From a virus: 24,381 nt of DNA. Both the position numbers and the translations under genes were made by a program. Below, in pieces: positions 1,423 through 22,626 of this stretch; the first letter of the stretch is position 1, and each line of letters begins with the position of its first letter. The notes beneath the pieces were generated by a model that was given only the letters and a program-made list of their open reading frames with translations, was not told where the DNA came from and made no database searches. The DNA lies in the IMG/VR virus record IMGVR_UViG_3300000930_000011, positions 1 to 24,381 of that record; one strand, written 5' to 3'.

Positions 1423-1437
1423 TACTTCTTTATATTA
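1423..1437 (+). promoter_or_regulatory. TACTTCT-type promoter
   Basis: TACTTCTTTATATTA begins 34 bases before the ATG at 1457. It combines the recurring TACTTCT 7-mer with a TATA-like segment. This is one of nine copies in the window. Confidence 0.65.
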
Positions 1438-5951: not shown

Positions 5952-6278
5952 CTATAGTCTATCTTCGTTGTATTTAAACCGTGTGTCATTTCCTATCTTG
6001 GACTCCACCTGATCTGACAGCATGGCTGCACATGACAGTACGTGATCGGTATGTCGCAATCCTGATTCAGGATCAAATTCTTCTCCGCCAATCCAAGCAA
6101 ACAGGTGTCTTAGCAGGGCGTTGTAGTGTCTGTCCCAGTCCAGTCCAACACCTGTCTTGTAGTTATAGGAGTCATATTTTATAGCCCCGTATGAAAGTGC
6201 CCTTGCCATTGCAAATACTGCATGTGGAGGACACAGTCCGATTTTAGGCTTTCCATCGTCATATTTTATACTTTCCAT
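5952..6278 (-). CDS. dATP/dGTP diphosphohydrolase-like (MazG-related, DUF5664-type) protein
   Basis: 108 aa. It matches the all-alpha domain known in many phages as the 'dATP/dGTP diphosphohydrolase N-terminal' family: KYDDGKPKIGLCPPHAVF, then ALSYGAIKYDSYN, then YNALLRHLFAWIGGEEFDPESG with the acidic metal-binding residues, and HTDHVLSCAAML. Members are thought to hydrolyse purine dNTPs and so adjust nucleotide pools or favour modified bases; which nucleotide is used here cannot be read. The domain stands alone. It is transcribed leftward, opposite to all other genes in the window, from a promoter in the 33-base gap shared with the gene at 6312. Confidence 0.75.
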   Translation of the reverse strand: MESIKYDDGKPKIGLCPPHAVFAMARALSYGAIKYDSYNYKTGVGLDWDRHYNALLRHLFAWIGGEEFDPESGLRHTDHVLSCAAMLSDQVESKIGNDTRFKYNEDRL

Positions 6279-6292
6279 ACTTCTTTATAATA
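6278..6292 (+). promoter_or_regulatory. TACTTCT-type promoter
   Basis: TACTTCTTTATAATA begins 34 bases before the ATG at 6312. Its first base is the first base of the divergent gene's start codon. Confidence 0.65.
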
Positions 6293-6664: not shown

Positions 6665-6679
6665 TACTTCTGTTTATTA
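6665..6679 (+). promoter_or_regulatory. TACTTCT-type promoter of the portal gene
   Basis: TACTTCTGTTTATTA begins 38 bases before the TTG at 6703. It is identical over 15 bases to the copies at 9272 and 22612. Confidence 0.75.
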
Positions 6680-9271: not shown

Positions 9272-9286
9272 TACTTCTGTTTATTA
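9272..9286 (+). promoter_or_regulatory. TACTTCT-type promoter of the capsid fusion gene
   Basis: TACTTCTGTTTATTA begins 33 bases before the ATG at 9305, with a leaderless arrangement. Confidence 0.75.
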
Positions 9287-9304: not shown

Positions 9305-11191
9305 ATGTTAAAAGTAGAGGGTACTCTAGCCATGCCTAGAAAGTCACTTAACGGCAATTTCTATTTCGCTTCCGAACTTGCAAAGGGACATGACAAGGTT
9401 GTAAAACTAAGACTTAATCACGACAAGACCGATTCAGGCGTAATCGGTGAGTCATTACTAATTTGGGACCAAGAAAAGGAACATTTGAATTATCAGGCGA
9501 CAATTAACAATGGAATGGTGGAATCACAGGTTCAAGCCCTTATAGATTCAGGAGATGACGTAAAGGTATCCCTTGGTCTGTCAGCAAACGAGGAATCAAC
9601 GATCTGTCACCCTGACGGTGGAGACTGTATGAGCACGCCCATAGATGTATCGTTCAATGAGATGTCAATTCTGTTGGGAGAGAATCCGGGAATACCGGAG
9701 GTGTCATTGACCATAGCGGAATCAAAATGTGGCAAGCATAACGTGGAATTATTCGCAACGGAATGCAAAATTACTTCTAATAGTACTGAGGTTCAAGATA
9801 TTAAAGTAATGACAAGTGAAAAAGTAGAACAAGACCTAAATGCAGAATTTGATGCAAAAGTAGACGCAGCCGTTACAGCCCGTATCGACGCACACCTCAA
9901 AAAACAAGAGGAAACAGCAACCGCAGAAGCAACCGCTAAAGCAGAAGCAGACAAATGTGCAGACGACGACTTTAAATGTAAAGCCGCTCAAAAAGCAAAA
10001 GACGAAGCAGAAGATCTTGCAAAACAAGAAGCACTTGAAAAATCTATAGCAGATTTAGTCGAGAAAAGAGTAGCCGAGGAAACAGCCAAAATTGAGAAAT
10101 CATTTGAAGCAACCGAAGCAAAGAAATCCGAACTCACTGAAAGCGTAAATCCTAAACAATGGGAAGAAGCACAAGTAGATGAGCAAGTCACTTTGATGGA
10201 AAAAGTCCTCGCAGGAGAACAAGTTTCCATTAAAATTGATAAAGAAGAATTCTTAGAGAAACACTCTGTATTCAAACCAAGTCAATTCTCAGAAGCAGTA
10301 ACCACTAGTGGTACTATTCCGGGAGTAGACGTAGGACAACAAATTGTAATCCTTCCCGGTGGAATCTTAGTAAAGACCATCAGACCATGGGTACAAGTTA
10401 AAGTTATCCCACAAGGATATGATACAGTAAGATTCTATACTCTTGACATCCCTGCATTTGGAACAATCACCGAGCATGTCTCCACAGATATTACACCTGC
10501 AACCCACGCACTTACCTCAATCGAAGTAACTGCAAACACTGTTAGAGGTTTCAGACAGAACGTCCTAAAAGCAGAGGTCGAGAAATATCCTAAAGACTTG
10601 TTGGAGAAAATCCGAGAAACAGCAAGAACTAGAGCATTAGAAGACGAAGTTACAATTACTTTGTCAACTATCGCCGCATCAACATCCGTTGACTTTGGTG
10701 CAAACCACTTAAACGCAAATGATGGTGCATTAGTTGCAGACAATGCCGCAGAAGACGCTACCGGTGTCATGAAAGCCGCAGGTATTGAAGCCGCAAAAGT
10801 TAGACTTCAATCCCAAGGACATGATCCAGAGAACGGTTCCGCAGTTATTGCTCTTACACCAAAAGCACAAAAAGAACTGATCCAAGATACAGTTATAGTT
10901 AACTTTATCCAAAACAGTTCACCTGAAATTAGTAGACAAGGTAGAATCAATCTGTACTTCGGTATTGAGATATTCGTCACCAACTCTATTAAAACAGACC
11001 TTAATAACTCAGCTAGAAATATCTGTTTCATGAAAGGTAAGTCATTTGGTCTTGCAGTAGGTAGAGATATCGAACTAGAGTTTGGTAAGAACATCGTAAG
11101 ACAATCCGTTGACATTGTTGCAACACACAGAGTCAATGCAGTAGTCTTAGATGCAACATCTTACGTAATTCTTTCAAGTAAAAACGATTAG
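9305..11191 (+). CDS. Prohead protease - scaffold - major capsid protein fusion
   Basis: 628 aa in three parts. Residues 1-~160 resemble the HK97-type prohead protease: FYFASELAKG, LNHDKTDSG with the probable catalytic His39, VKVSLGLSANEE with Ser89, and FNEMSILLGENPGIPEVSL. Residues ~170-290 are a highly charged Ala/Glu/Lys-rich helix, the coiled-coil scaffold ('delta') region removed during maturation. Residues ~325-628 look like an HK97-fold capsid protein (E-loop, GIEAAKVRLQSQGHD spine-type helix, AVGRDIELEFGKNIVRQSVDIVATHRVNAVV strands). Protease and capsid are usually separate genes; here one frame carries both. Codon use changes near residue 160 (more GAA, ATT and AAA afterwards), and an in-frame ATG at residue 169 has a promoter-like motif 37 bases upstream. 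Confidence 0.85.
   Translation: MLKVEGTLAMPRKSLNGNFYFASELAKGHDKVVKLRLNHDKTDSGVIGESLLIWDQEKEHLNYQATINNGMVESQVQALIDSGDDVKVSLGLSANEESTICHPDGGDCMSTPIDVSFNEMSILLGENPGIPEVSLTIAESKCGKHNVELFATECKITSNSTEVQDIKVMTSEKVEQDLNAEFDAKVDAAVTARIDAHLKKQEETATAEATAKAEADKCADDDFKCKAAQKAKDEAEDLAKQEALEKSIADLVEKRVAEETAKIEKSFEATEAKKSELTESVNPKQWEEAQVDEQVTLMEKVLAGEQVSIKIDKEEFLEKHSVFKPSQFSEAVTTSGTIPGVDVGQQIVILPGGILVKTIRPWVQVKVIPQGYDTVRFYTLDIPAFGTITEHVSTDITPATHALTSIEVTANTVRGFRQNVLKAEVEKYPKDLLEKIRETARTRALEDEVTITLSTIAASTSVDFGANHLNANDGALVADNAAEDATGVMKAAGIEAAKVRLQSQGHDPENGSAVIALTPKAQKELIQDTVIVNFIQNSSPEISRQGRINLYFGIEIFVTNSIKTDLNNSARNICFMKGKSFGLAVGRDIELEFGKNIVRQSVDIVATHRVNAVVLDATSYVILSSKND
9772..9786 (+). promoter_or_regulatory. 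Possible internal TACTTCT promoter inside the capsid fusion gene
   Basis: TACTTCTAATAGTAC begins 37 bases before the in-frame ATG at 9809, the same spacing as the tail tube promoter. The TATA part is weaker than elsewhere and the bases also encode protein, so this is less certain than the intergenic copies. Confidence 0.4.
9809..11191 (+). CDS. Possible nested scaffold - major capsid product (internal start)
   Basis: Starting from the in-frame ATG at residue 169 of the fusion would give a 460-aa protein with only scaffold and capsid parts. Supporting signs are the TACTTCT motif 37 bases upstream, a domain boundary at this point, and a visible switch to A-rich, GAA/ATT-preferring codons as expected for a high-copy product. 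A virion needs hundreds of capsid subunits but few proteases, so a nested short product makes biological sense. No direct evidence separates this from use of the full-length fusion alone. Confidence 0.4.
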   Translation: MTSEKVEQDLNAEFDAKVDAAVTARIDAHLKKQEETATAEATAKAEADKCADDDFKCKAAQKAKDEAEDLAKQEALEKSIADLVEKRVAEETAKIEKSFEATEAKKSELTESVNPKQWEEAQVDEQVTLMEKVLAGEQVSIKIDKEEFLEKHSVFKPSQFSEAVTTSGTIPGVDVGQQIVILPGGILVKTIRPWVQVKVIPQGYDTVRFYTLDIPAFGTITEHVSTDITPATHALTSIEVTANTVRGFRQNVLKAEVEKYPKDLLEKIRETARTRALEDEVTITLSTIAASTSVDFGANHLNANDGALVADNAAEDATGVMKAAGIEAAKVRLQSQGHDPENGSAVIALTPKAQKELIQDTVIVNFIQNSSPEISRQGRINLYFGIEIFVTNSIKTDLNNSARNICFMKGKSFGLAVGRDIELEFGKNIVRQSVDIVATHRVNAVVLDATSYVILSSKND

Positions 11192-11234: not shown

Positions 11235-11255
11235 GTGCCACATGTGTATATCTAT

Positions 11256-12239
11256 ATGAATAACACGATACTAGCACTAGTCGTTACAGCAGTACTAACT
11301 GCAGGAACGGCATACGCGGAAGAGTCAGTCGTACAGGTACCATTTGAATCACATGGTCAAAGCTGTACGTTTGATGAGATCGCAGTAGAATACCAATGCG
11401 TTTGGCAAGGAGTAAGAGATGTCTTCACCATTGAGGACTTGAAAGAATTCAAAAGCATGCTTTCAGAACAAACTTATGACAGAGAACTTGCAAGACTTAC
11501 GGAAGAAGCCATGGCAGAGATTGCAGTAGAGAAGGCAAAACTCACACCTAACGAGAGGACAATTCAAGAGATTGAGGAGAAACTCGACAGGGGTATCGCA
11601 ACTGCAAGAGACTCAGTTCTAATGAACCTGCTCAAAGAGTTGAACACATGCGAACAGGGCATGGATGAAAGAACTCAACACTTCCAAACCGCAAGAGAGT
11701 TTGAAGTCTCAGACTTTCAACTGTGGTCAGTCAACAACGTAAAGTATGAAGGAGTCTTGGGAGAACTTGCTATGGCAATAGAAGAGTGTCAAGCACAGCA
11801 AGAAATCTATAAACTCGGTGTAGGTTATCAGAACTTTGACTTTGGTAGCAAACAGTACTCACTGAATGACAAGTTCACATCTGACATACAAGCCGTTAAC
11901 TATGACAGTCTGGTTGCAACAGACAGTGGAATCAACAAGAGTCTAATATGTGACAGCAACGCACACAGTCAACAGTACAAGAAACAGTTCGGCTGTAACA
12001 TGCTGTATAACGGCATAGACGAGTCTGAAATCAAACGTCAAAACGAGATACGATTCGGTACTGACGGAAAGATCAGTTATGAGTCACAAGTCTTGGATGA
12101 CTATATGAATTTCATGAACGAGTATGGCGACAGACAGGCAACCGCTGAGGACAAGAAGGTACAGGAGATGATCGCCGAACCAATCGCAAACGAGTGGAAA
12201 GATGATCACAACTTTTACAAAAATCATTCAGAGGACTAA
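11256..12239 (+). CDS. Secreted protein with N-terminal signal peptide
   Basis: 327 aa. It begins MNNTILALVVTAVLTAGTAYA, a Sec signal peptide with an AYA cleavage site before EESV. The mature part has paired cysteines (SHGQSCTFDEIAVEYQCVW and later single Cys) and a long helical, Glu/Lys-rich middle (IEDLKEFKSMLSEQ onward, KLTPNERTIQEIEEKLDRG). The style recalls secreted thaumarchaeal proteins. A GTG at 11235 gives seven extra residues, but it lies only nine bases after the start of the TATA box, so the ATG is preferred. It lies right after the capsid gene in its own transcription unit. Possible roles are modification of the host surface, superinfection blocking, egress or a virion glycoprotein; none is demonstrated. 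Confidence 0.75.
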   Translation: MNNTILALVVTAVLTAGTAYAEESVVQVPFESHGQSCTFDEIAVEYQCVWQGVRDVFTIEDLKEFKSMLSEQTYDRELARLTEEAMAEIAVEKAKLTPNERTIQEIEEKLDRGIATARDSVLMNLLKELNTCEQGMDERTQHFQTAREFEVSDFQLWSVNNVKYEGVLGELAMAIEECQAQQEIYKLGVGYQNFDFGSKQYSLNDKFTSDIQAVNYDSLVATDSGINKSLICDSNAHSQQYKKQFGCNMLYNGIDESEIKRQNEIRFGTDGKISYESQVLDDYMNFMNEYGDRQATAEDKKVQEMIAEPIANEWKDDHNFYKNHSED

Positions 12240-13919: not shown

Positions 13920-13934
13920 TACTTCTGTTTATTG
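13920..13934 (+). promoter_or_regulatory. TACTTCT-type promoter of the neck genes
   Basis: TACTTCTGTTTATTG begins 34 bases before the ATG at 13954. Confidence 0.75.
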
Positions 13935-14822: not shown

Positions 14823-14837
14823 TACTTCTTTATACAA
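14823..14837 (+). promoter_or_regulatory. TACTTCT-type promoter of the tail tube gene
   Basis: TACTTCTTTATACAA begins 37 bases before the ATG at 14860. Confidence 0.75.
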
Positions 14838-16206: not shown

Positions 16207-16367
16207 ACGCGTTTCCTGAGATCTCGGATCTGTTACTGTTAAACAATTACGTGTCGGCAGGATATGGTACGATGGCTGAGGCTATAAGTCTGATAGACGA
16301 AAAAGGTCGTGACTATCTAAACAAATTACTTCGTGTTAAGATGATTCAACAAGAAGAAGCGGATTGA
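16125..16367 (+). CDS. Frameshift extension of the tail assembly chaperone (gpT-like part)
   Basis: After a -1 shift at 16119-16125, translation continues SKLEFDRSGQAIRSAIVG and ends at 16367, adding 80 residues to the first 105 of the chaperone for a ~185-aa GT-like fusion. The extension, with DYKERNKALNAF and YLNKLLRVKMIQQEEAD, is helical and charged like T domains that recruit the tape measure protein. An independent start at TTG 16131 exists but has no ribosome binding site or promoter. The stop overlaps the next start as TTGA. Confidence 0.7.
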   Translation, partial: SKLEFDRSGQAIRSAIVGDYKERNKALNAFPEISDLLLLNNYVSAGYGTMAEAISLIDEKGRDYLNKLLRVKMIQQEEAD

Positions 16368-17041
16368 CTTCTAGTATAACATTTGACAGTAATTGGAGGC
16401 AGATGATAAAGGATATGGAAAATTCCATTAGAAACAGTGACGATTATCAGCGTGAATTCGTGGATTTGCTTAGTCAGGGATTGTTAAAGATATGTAAGGA
16501 CTTGTCTCCCGTAAAGGACGGTCAGTTGAGGGACTCTTGGCAAATATCCAAAAAGTCATTGAAAGAGATAATAATAGAGACTGACATGGTTGATGCCTAT
16601 TCCAGAATTGTAGAAGGCATGCGTCCTCAGGTCATATATGCAAAGAACGCCAAGGCGATGCATTATTTCATAGGCAACAAGGAATTCTTTAGACAGAAGG
16701 TAGAGATACTTGGATCGCCTAAAAATGACTTCCTTCAGCCCGTATTGGACAAGGCTGTAGACAAGGTCATACATGATCTTAGTCTGGCGTTAATACCTAA
16801 ACATAACAAATTTTTTGCAAAAAGTATGAGTCCGTCACAGCCGCGTACAGGACATAAGAAGTTCGTCAACTCTAACCTGTCAAAGGCGGTAGGTCTTACA
16901 GGTACAAAGCGTAACACCAGAAGGGGAAGAGGCAGCGGTATGCAACGTGCCAAGACCGGACGCAAGTCATTCAAACGTACGTTATCCAGACGTAGACGTA
17001 CTGGAAAGTTCATTACTTCTAAAAACGTCAAGATTGGATAA
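16364..17041 (+). CDS. HK97 gp10-like tail/neck protein with Arg/Lys-rich tail
   Basis: 225 aa. The first ~145 residues match the HK97 gp10-like pattern: LSPVKDGQLRDSWQI ('P.dtG.LrdSi'), then AYSRIVEGMRPQVIYAKN ('YA..vE.G'), a central HYFIGNKEFF, and a C-terminal helix FLQPVLDKAVDKVIHDL. The last ~65 residues are extremely basic (KRNTRRGRGSG ... RKSFKRTLSRRRRTGK), unusual for the family and suited to nucleic-acid or acidic-surface binding. The chosen start is a TTG overlapping the previous stop (TTGA); an ATG 13 codons later (16403) is the alternative. Its place after the chaperone rather than before the tube is atypical. Confidence 0.65.
   Translation: MTSSITFDSNWRQMIKDMENSIRNSDDYQREFVDLLSQGLLKICKDLSPVKDGQLRDSWQISKKSLKEIIIETDMVDAYSRIVEGMRPQVIYAKNAKAMHYFIGNKEFFRQKVEILGSPKNDFLQPVLDKAVDKVIHDLSLALIPKHNKFFAKSMSPSQPRTGHKKFVNSNLSKAVGLTGTKRNTRRGRGSGMQRAKTGRKSFKRTLSRRRRTGKFITSKNVKIG
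17014..17020 (+). promoter_or_regulatory. TACTTCT element upstream of the tape measure gene
   Basis: TACTTCT begins 34 bases before the ATG at 17048, inside the 3' end of the preceding gene. It is followed by AAAAACG instead of a TATA-like segment, so it is a weaker candidate. Confidence 0.4.
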
Positions 17042-21821: not shown

Positions 21822-22610
21822 ATGTCATATCTAAACGATTACATTAAACCGACTGACTATGGTGCCGTACGCAAGGACATCAACAGGATTCTGTCTCTGA
21901 TCCACGACATCACTGCACAGGAACCTGAGGACGAGGGACTGCAGGAGCGCATATGTATCTCATCCAACGTCAAACTCAGAACGACTTCCGTGGTTTTCGG
22001 AGCAGCAAACCTGCTAGGTCTTACTCCGCGAGACAGATTAATATCTGCTTTCAGAAAGAGCATACCGTCGTCAGTTTACACGTATGATTTGTCTCATGCC
22101 ACCACGGGTACTTTGACATATTCAAACAGTTCCACCAAGTTTGGCGGAGGTGCCACGTTTGACGGTTCATCATATATCACCATAACAGATCATGCCAGAA
22201 TGGATACGGACTATGTGTCTCTGGGAGGATGGTTCTATCTTCCTGCGACCGATTCTGGCGATACAGACTCGCAGAACCTTGTAGGAAAGGGAAACGAGTT
22301 CAGTCTGTCAGTTGATCCCCATGCCACGGCACCCAATCAACTGCGTGCAGTGTCAAGAGATCCCGAGACGACACAGTTTGAGACTGAGGCAGGTGTGGGA
22401 ATAACTACGGAGGATTCCACCATACTTGAGGCAACATATAATACGGGCGCTTACGTGGTGGGAACGTTCACTCCGGACGCTTGGAATCACGTGGTAATGA
22501 CAAGAGGATCTGTAAACATCAAACTGTATATAAACAACGTTCTGGTTGGAACAAACGCAACCATGGACGGTCCCATTTTGCAGGGAACTGAGGATCTAGT
22601 CATTGGCTAA
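21822..22610 (+). CDS. LamG-domain adsorption protein
   Basis: 262 aa. Residues 1-~80 have a helical N terminus (NDYIKPTDYGAVRKDINRILSLIHDI), which may attach to the baseplate. Residues ~85-262 form a LamG/concanavalin-like jelly roll: FGGGATFDGSSYITI, LGGWFYLPA, TPDAWNHVVMTRGSVNIKLY and NNVLVGTN are classic LamG3 strands. Such domains bind sugars or proteins on the host surface. The frame stops right after DLVIG, where LamG domains normally continue with a final strand (typically ..G.iD.v.iy...), so the domain seems to lack its last strand. Confidence 0.75.
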   Translation: MSYLNDYIKPTDYGAVRKDINRILSLIHDITAQEPEDEGLQERICISSNVKLRTTSVVFGAANLLGLTPRDRLISAFRKSIPSSVYTYDLSHATTGTLTYSNSSTKFGGGATFDGSSYITITDHARMDTDYVSLGGWFYLPATDSGDTDSQNLVGKGNEFSLSVDPHATAPNQLRAVSRDPETTQFETEAGVGITTEDSTILEATYNTGAYVVGTFTPDAWNHVVMTRGSVNIKLYINNVLVGTNATMDGPILQGTEDLVIG

Positions 22611-22611
22611 T

Positions 22612-22626
22612 TACTTCTGTTTATTA
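22612..22626 (+). promoter_or_regulatory. TACTTCT-type promoter of the fibre genes
   Basis: TACTTCTGTTTATTA begins 33 bases before the ATG at 22645. It starts two bases after the LamG gene's stop. Confidence 0.75.

Follow-up and report, generated by a model that had tools for sequence, protein, structure and literature searches.

A second start signal appears to be hidden inside the protease-capsid gene of viruses of ammonia-oxidising archaea, as is strongly indicated by the conservation of a 7-mer and an in-frame ATG within that gene. Since protease, scaffold and shell protein are encoded there as one protein, each subunit of the shell would come with a protease attached, and a second promoter inside the gene would be a testable way out of this problem. 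The best explanation for the conserved element, and very probably the correct one, is a nested late promoter from which the scaffold-capsid protein would be made without the protease, in larger amounts than the full-length fusion.

The window, by which we mean the whole 24.4 kb stretch of DNA analysed (24,381 nt, from the IMG/VR collection), comes from a tailed virus with a relative in Nvie-Pro1, a provirus of Nitrososphaera viennensis; the two terminases are 33% identical. The fusion ORF of the window is homologous along its full length to Nvie-Pro1-8, annotated as "protease/major capsid protein" (30% identity over 87%). Such protease-capsid fusions have already been published for Nvie-Pro1 and for the Nitrosocaldus provirus NCAV2-Pro1 (PMC6563490), and a related marine fosmid, Oxic1_7, carries a homologous protease/major capsid fusion (PMC4392320). 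Both papers describe the fusion only and mention no promoter; in the literature searched, no report was found of an embedded promoter in such fusions or of thaumarchaeal virus promoters, a prior mention elsewhere being possible. The gene and the elements discussed below are as follows, in window coordinates.

9272 to 9278, plus strand: TACTTCT promoter element (predicted) for the full-length fusion, 33 nt before ATG 9305
9305 to 11191, plus strand: protease-scaffold-major capsid fusion gene, 628 aa, homologue of Nvie-Pro1-8
9305 to 9754, plus strand: protease domain, residues 1-150 (AlphaFold2 pLDDT 74, pTM 0.72), with invariant H39 and S89
9755 to 9826, plus strand: variable linker, residues 151-174, predicted to be disordered (pLDDT 25-45), containing the predicted internal promoter and start
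9772 to 9778, plus strand: predicted internal promoter element (TACTTCT), exactly 37 nt upstream of ATG 9809
9809 to 11191, plus strand: predicted nested ORF for a protease-free scaffold-capsid protein, 460 aa, MTSEKVEQD...
9827 to 10126, plus strand: scaffold (delta-like) region, residues 175-274, with AlphaFold2 helices at 175-216 and 224-274
10295 to 11188, plus strand: major capsid (HK97-fold) region, residues about 331-628, by profile match

Relatives were collected as loci fetched from viral contigs, 23 of which cover the internal site. The non-redundant set comprises 13 sequences including the window (at least 3% nucleotide difference), with L033 as a fourteenth (62% identity across the capsid C-terminus). 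At four-fold sites shared by the relatives the mean pairwise difference is 0.46; because the marine relatives form one clade, the sequence counts given below are not independent events. Besides Nvie-Pro1, no record in the "phages" collection matched the window terminase or the fusion protein, the Nvie-Pro1 protein as query retrieved no further viruses, and searches of genome contigs found no relatives in host genomes.

The predicted structure of the first 150 residues points to an S78/assemblin-like prohead protease fold. Foldseek matched the model to phage prohead maturation proteases in BFVD (E 7e-5, probability 1.0), and the best PDB matches were herpesvirus assemblins, at E values of 0.014-0.09 that are not significant alone. 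H39 and S89 are assumed to be the catalytic His and Ser. Neither Pfam nor PHROGs, run on the fusion, its domains and its neighbours, returned a protease family (E below 0.001) or a capsid family for the fusion. In profile searches residues 469-611 matched the PDB major capsid proteins 8zvi, 5tjt and 8ho3 (E 6e-7 to 8e-5); in a full-length AlphaFold2 model built from 12 sequences the capsid part is unreliable (pLDDT about 25). The sequence-only reading had placed the internal start at the protease/scaffold boundary, and the predicted model bears this out, with the ATG falling in the linker between the protease-fold domain and the helical region.

TACTTCT is over-represented in the window and strongly positioned with respect to ORF starts. 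There are 11 exact copies against 4.3 expected, and none of 100 shuffles contained at least 11. All nine plus-strand copies lie 33-38 nt upstream of the start of an ORF of at least 60 aa, a placement shared by 7.4% of random window positions and by neither of the two minus-strand copies. Over the 14 non-redundant loci, 77 of 86 plus-strand copies were start-positioned, compared with none of 28 on the minus strand and 6.7% of random positions. Between genes the spacing ranges over 33-38 nt, 34 being commonest, so that the motif behaves as a promoter element near the usual place of a TATA box. We infer from this position that late (structural) genes in tailed viruses of ammonia-oxidising archaea have TACTTCT as their core promoter element. 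The other plus-strand copies in the window are these.

1423 to 1429, plus strand: TACTTCT, 34 nt before ORF 1457
6278 to 6284, plus strand: TACTTCT, 34 nt before ORF 6312
6665 to 6671, plus strand: TACTTCT, 38 nt before 6703, where the portal-position gene has its TTG start
13920 to 13926, plus strand: TACTTCT, 34 nt before ORF 13954
14823 to 14829, plus strand: TACTTCT, 37 nt before tail-tube gene 14860 (35-38 nt in relatives)
17014 to 17020, plus strand: TACTTCT, 34 nt before tape-measure-like gene 17048 and inside the preceding gene (16364-17041) at its 3′ end
22612 to 22618, plus strand: TACTTCT, 33 nt before ORF 22645

The portal-position gene is apparently TTG-initiated, and the 38-nt spacing with a TTG or ATG start recurs in many relatives. 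The coding-embedded copy before the tape-measure-like gene is retained in several relatives. A test for the canonical archaeal TATA/BRE arrangement found no TATA-like box at about -30, where TACTTCT or TAGTTCT sits. Genes 896, 2487 and 12836 have a TATA-like TTTATATA or TATATATA at about -30 instead of TACTTCT; set against TACTTCT before the structural genes, these sequences suggest early/late or host/viral promoter classes.

The sequence-only reading had singled out TACTTCT at 9772, followed after 37 nt by the in-frame ATG 9809 (residue 169) and a 460-aa ORF, and all of this is confirmed on the sequence. The window by itself makes the internal copy no more than suggestive, because 264 of 20,000 synonymous shuffles (1.3%) recreate it; a chance match, which this result would allow, was rejected in view of conservation and of Nvie-Pro1. 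Each of the 23 related loci spanning the site keeps TACTTCT, the 37-nt spacing and the in-frame ATG together, and all seven bases with the exact spacing occur in 14/14 non-redundant sequences (window included). Motif and ATG are thus retained in every relative found, where their loss from close relatives had been named as the outcome that would speak against an internal promoter. The surrounding region is the most variable of the gene, with indels adjoining the element and none between element and ATG. Linker residues likewise vary, except for T157-S158 and M169, and indels adjoin the linker. The invariant run at the site is exactly the 7 nt of TACTTCT, and no longer one exists in the 504 nt of protease and linker. 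Directly before it, codon 156 is either ATT (Ile) or AAT (Asn), its third-position T being constant. At 37 nt the spacing is near the maximum of the 33-38 range, and the A/T-rich spacer of the intergenic copies is less marked here. No RNA structure was found at the internal site (z = 0.86), nor any Rfam match. The element upstream of the fusion gene is a positioned consensus in 11/14 non-redundant relatives, with CACTTCT in L008, ACTTCCT in L014 and no positioned copy in L015. In these three loci the internal element is intact, which is consistent with stronger constraint on the putative internal promoter than on the upstream one.

Nvie-Pro1 served as an independent test. TACTTCT is absent from this provirus (0 copies), which has 12 copies of TAGTTCT, all on the plus strand and all start-positioned, where 1.8 would be expected on both strands. 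Within the fusion gene, one of them precedes by exactly 37 nt ATG 7439 of the provirus, the codon that aligns with M169 and is invariant in all relatives, Nvie-Pro1 included. With a shuffle expectation of 0.9 per strand over 23,750 bases, the chance of TAGTTCT at that position is about 4e-5. The residues encoded at the internal element are Ser-Ser, compared with Thr-Ser in the marine viruses, so the DNA would have tracked its own promoter consensus and the protein changed along with it. A broader proposal, which we offer tentatively and lean slightly against, treats TA(C/G)TTCT as a late promoter class of its own in these viruses, distinct from TATA promoters and recognised by a virus-directed initiation factor; the embedded copy would predate the marine/soil split, and the consensus would have switched from C to G in concert at all sites, the coding one among them. 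In Nvie-Pro1 (L001), TAGTTCT before structural-region ORF starts (3664, 4394, 6895, 9193, 9499, 9741, 10588, 10812, 11324, 15667 and 17327) could serve to correct annotated starts.

It has to be asked whether the conserved stretch might instead reflect a feature of the protein, for example a site at which the protease cuts free of the scaffold, in which case the resemblance to the promoter motif would be incidental. T157, S158 and M169 are indeed invariant at the protein level in the marine relatives, and a protease of this kind would be expected to have a release site in this linker. However, the codons ACT and TCT are themselves invariant, whereas among invariant columns only 2/18 Thr and 3/17 Ser are fixed at the codon level (these two included), and the third-position T of codon 156 survives the change between Ile and Asn. 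The Ser-Ser of Nvie-Pro1 is, moreover, exactly what its own variant TAGTTCT demands. A minus-strand TACTTCT that is protein-encoded, within the conserved peptide LKAEVEK, provides a control: it drifts freely and is kept in 5/13 sequences. We consider a protein feature very improbable, and on these grounds (codon invariance, Ile/Asn switch, Ser-Ser and drifting control) constraint at the protein level was rejected.

Internal translation initiation on the full-length mRNA could also produce the short protein, with no nested transcript. The overlap product of lambda C/Nu3-type genes is generally ascribed to such initiation, the in-frame ATG here is invariant, and leadered initiation exists in the window, as operon-internal genes often have Shine-Dalgarno-like sequences. 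However, a test for this type of arrangement found no conserved ribosome-binding site before the internal start: no Shine-Dalgarno lies at a useful distance from ATG 9809 and none is conserved, which speaks for a transcript start at or near the ATG. Internal translation would also leave unexplained a conserved 7-mer at -37 that is the same as the element before eight other ORFs, and we regard it as very improbable. Another possibility is that the embedded element is a true promoter serving the downstream genes, from 11235 onwards, the in-frame ATG being incidental. Promoters embedded in preceding genes do seem to occur in the window, as at 17014 within 16364-17041, and a transcript from 9772 would cover the capsid region too. 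However, the element is about 1.4 kb upstream of the next gene, both the ATG and its exact distance of 37 nt are invariant, Nvie-Pro1 included, and high codon adaptation starts close to this ATG, so that a promoter for the downstream genes alone seems extremely unlikely.

A shift in codon use near the boundary, claimed by the sequence-only reading, proved to be real. Adaptation was measured against the capsid-part codon set of the other loci, and therefore only the contrast between scaffold and protease is free of circularity. Values in the window are 0.45 for the protease, 0.76 for the scaffold and 0.73 for the capsid, the latter two parts being the best adapted in the window (next value 0.56). 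Splitting at residue 169 gives 0.45 before and 0.76 after; as a change point, codon 162 fits the window best, and codons 161-167 fit best with 13 loci pooled. Adaptation of the protease is below that of the scaffold in 13/13 loci, the difference being slight in some (L004, 0.715 to 0.732), and in Nvie-Pro1 it rises from 0.52 (protease) through 0.71 (scaffold) to 0.76 (capsid). This pattern fits stronger expression of everything 3′ of the internal start.

From these comparisons we infer promoter action of the motif, a transcript start, an excess of the short form and a role in assembly. Transcription from the upstream copy (9272) would give the 628-aa fusion, and transcription from the embedded copy (9772) would begin at or just before ATG 9809. 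The latter mRNA may be leaderless or near-leaderless, the wider wording being preferred because the distance from motif to start varies between 33 and 38 nt, and it would be translated into the 460-aa scaffold-capsid protein lacking the protease. Made in excess, this short form would build the prohead. The long form would join the assembly through its identical scaffold-capsid part, and in this way a minority of protease molecules would be carried inside the prohead, where the enclosed protease could cut linker and scaffold.

Known systems resemble parts of this arrangement. In HK97, two genes encode an S78-type protease (gp4) and a capsid protein that carries a scaffold (delta) domain at its N-terminus (gp5); here the corresponding parts are fused, an internal promoter apparently restoring the separation. 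In herpesviruses, a promoter within the UL26 protease ORF gives rise to the 3′-coterminal, in-frame UL26.5 transcript encoding abundant protease-free scaffold (PMC4498786, PMC2949831; citing Liu and Roizman, 1991). As in UL26/UL26.5 and the CMV assemblin nested gene family, an assemblin-type protease and a scaffold share one ORF in the archaeal virus. As in UL26/UL26.5, the in-frame nested ORF begins after the protease domain (ATG 9809, in linker 151-174), and a promoter element, predicted here from sequence conservation (TACTTCT/TAGTTCT at -37), lies within the longer ORF. Unlike in herpesviruses, where the capsid protein has a separate gene, the archaeal virus joins its scaffold to the capsid protein as well; the host is an archaeon and the element a 7-mer. 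The likeness is likely to represent similar design in related machinery, the proteases resembling each other at the level of fold only. The closest counterpart is gene 8 of Nvie-Pro1, a homologous fusion whose internal element reads TAGTTCT, with G where the marine viruses have C. In the bacterial Pseudomonas phage MD8, one gene, gp5, has been proposed to encode protease, scaffold and capsid, and the accessible part of that article describes no solution to the stoichiometry of this three-part gene, which we liken to ours by description (PMC8508860). For the protease-scaffold genes of lambda (C/Nu3) and P2, PMC8508860 cites Shaw and Murialdo (1980) on an overlap between scaffold and protease gene. 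The capsid protein of these phages is separate, in contrast to its fusion in the archaeal virus.

Nested promoters of this kind are best known from herpesviruses; one in these fusions would bring the same logic to tailed viruses of archaea and take in the capsid protein too. The proposal also yields a prediction for the N-terminus of the main virion protein. The motif would provide a late-promoter signal for viruses of abundant ammonia-oxidising archaea and could aid the annotation of uncultivated genomes. Several other genes of the window deserve mention. The gene that follows the capsid gene (11235-12239) has a signal-peptide-like start (MNNTILALVVTAVLTAGTAYAEE) and no TACTTCT, and may encode a secreted or virion-surface protein. 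ORFs 1739-2434, 2487-2792 and 21822-22610 encode, respectively, a Cas4/PDDEXK-like nuclease just below the Pfam cut-off, a gamma-glutamyl cyclotransferase (GGACT) protein and a protein with a concanavalin-like lectin domain (Laminin_G_3). Small cysteine-rich, zinc-finger-like proteins lacking Pfam matches are encoded at 401-841 and 1457-1642 and are candidate late transcription factors, the 1457 gene being itself preceded by TACTTCT.
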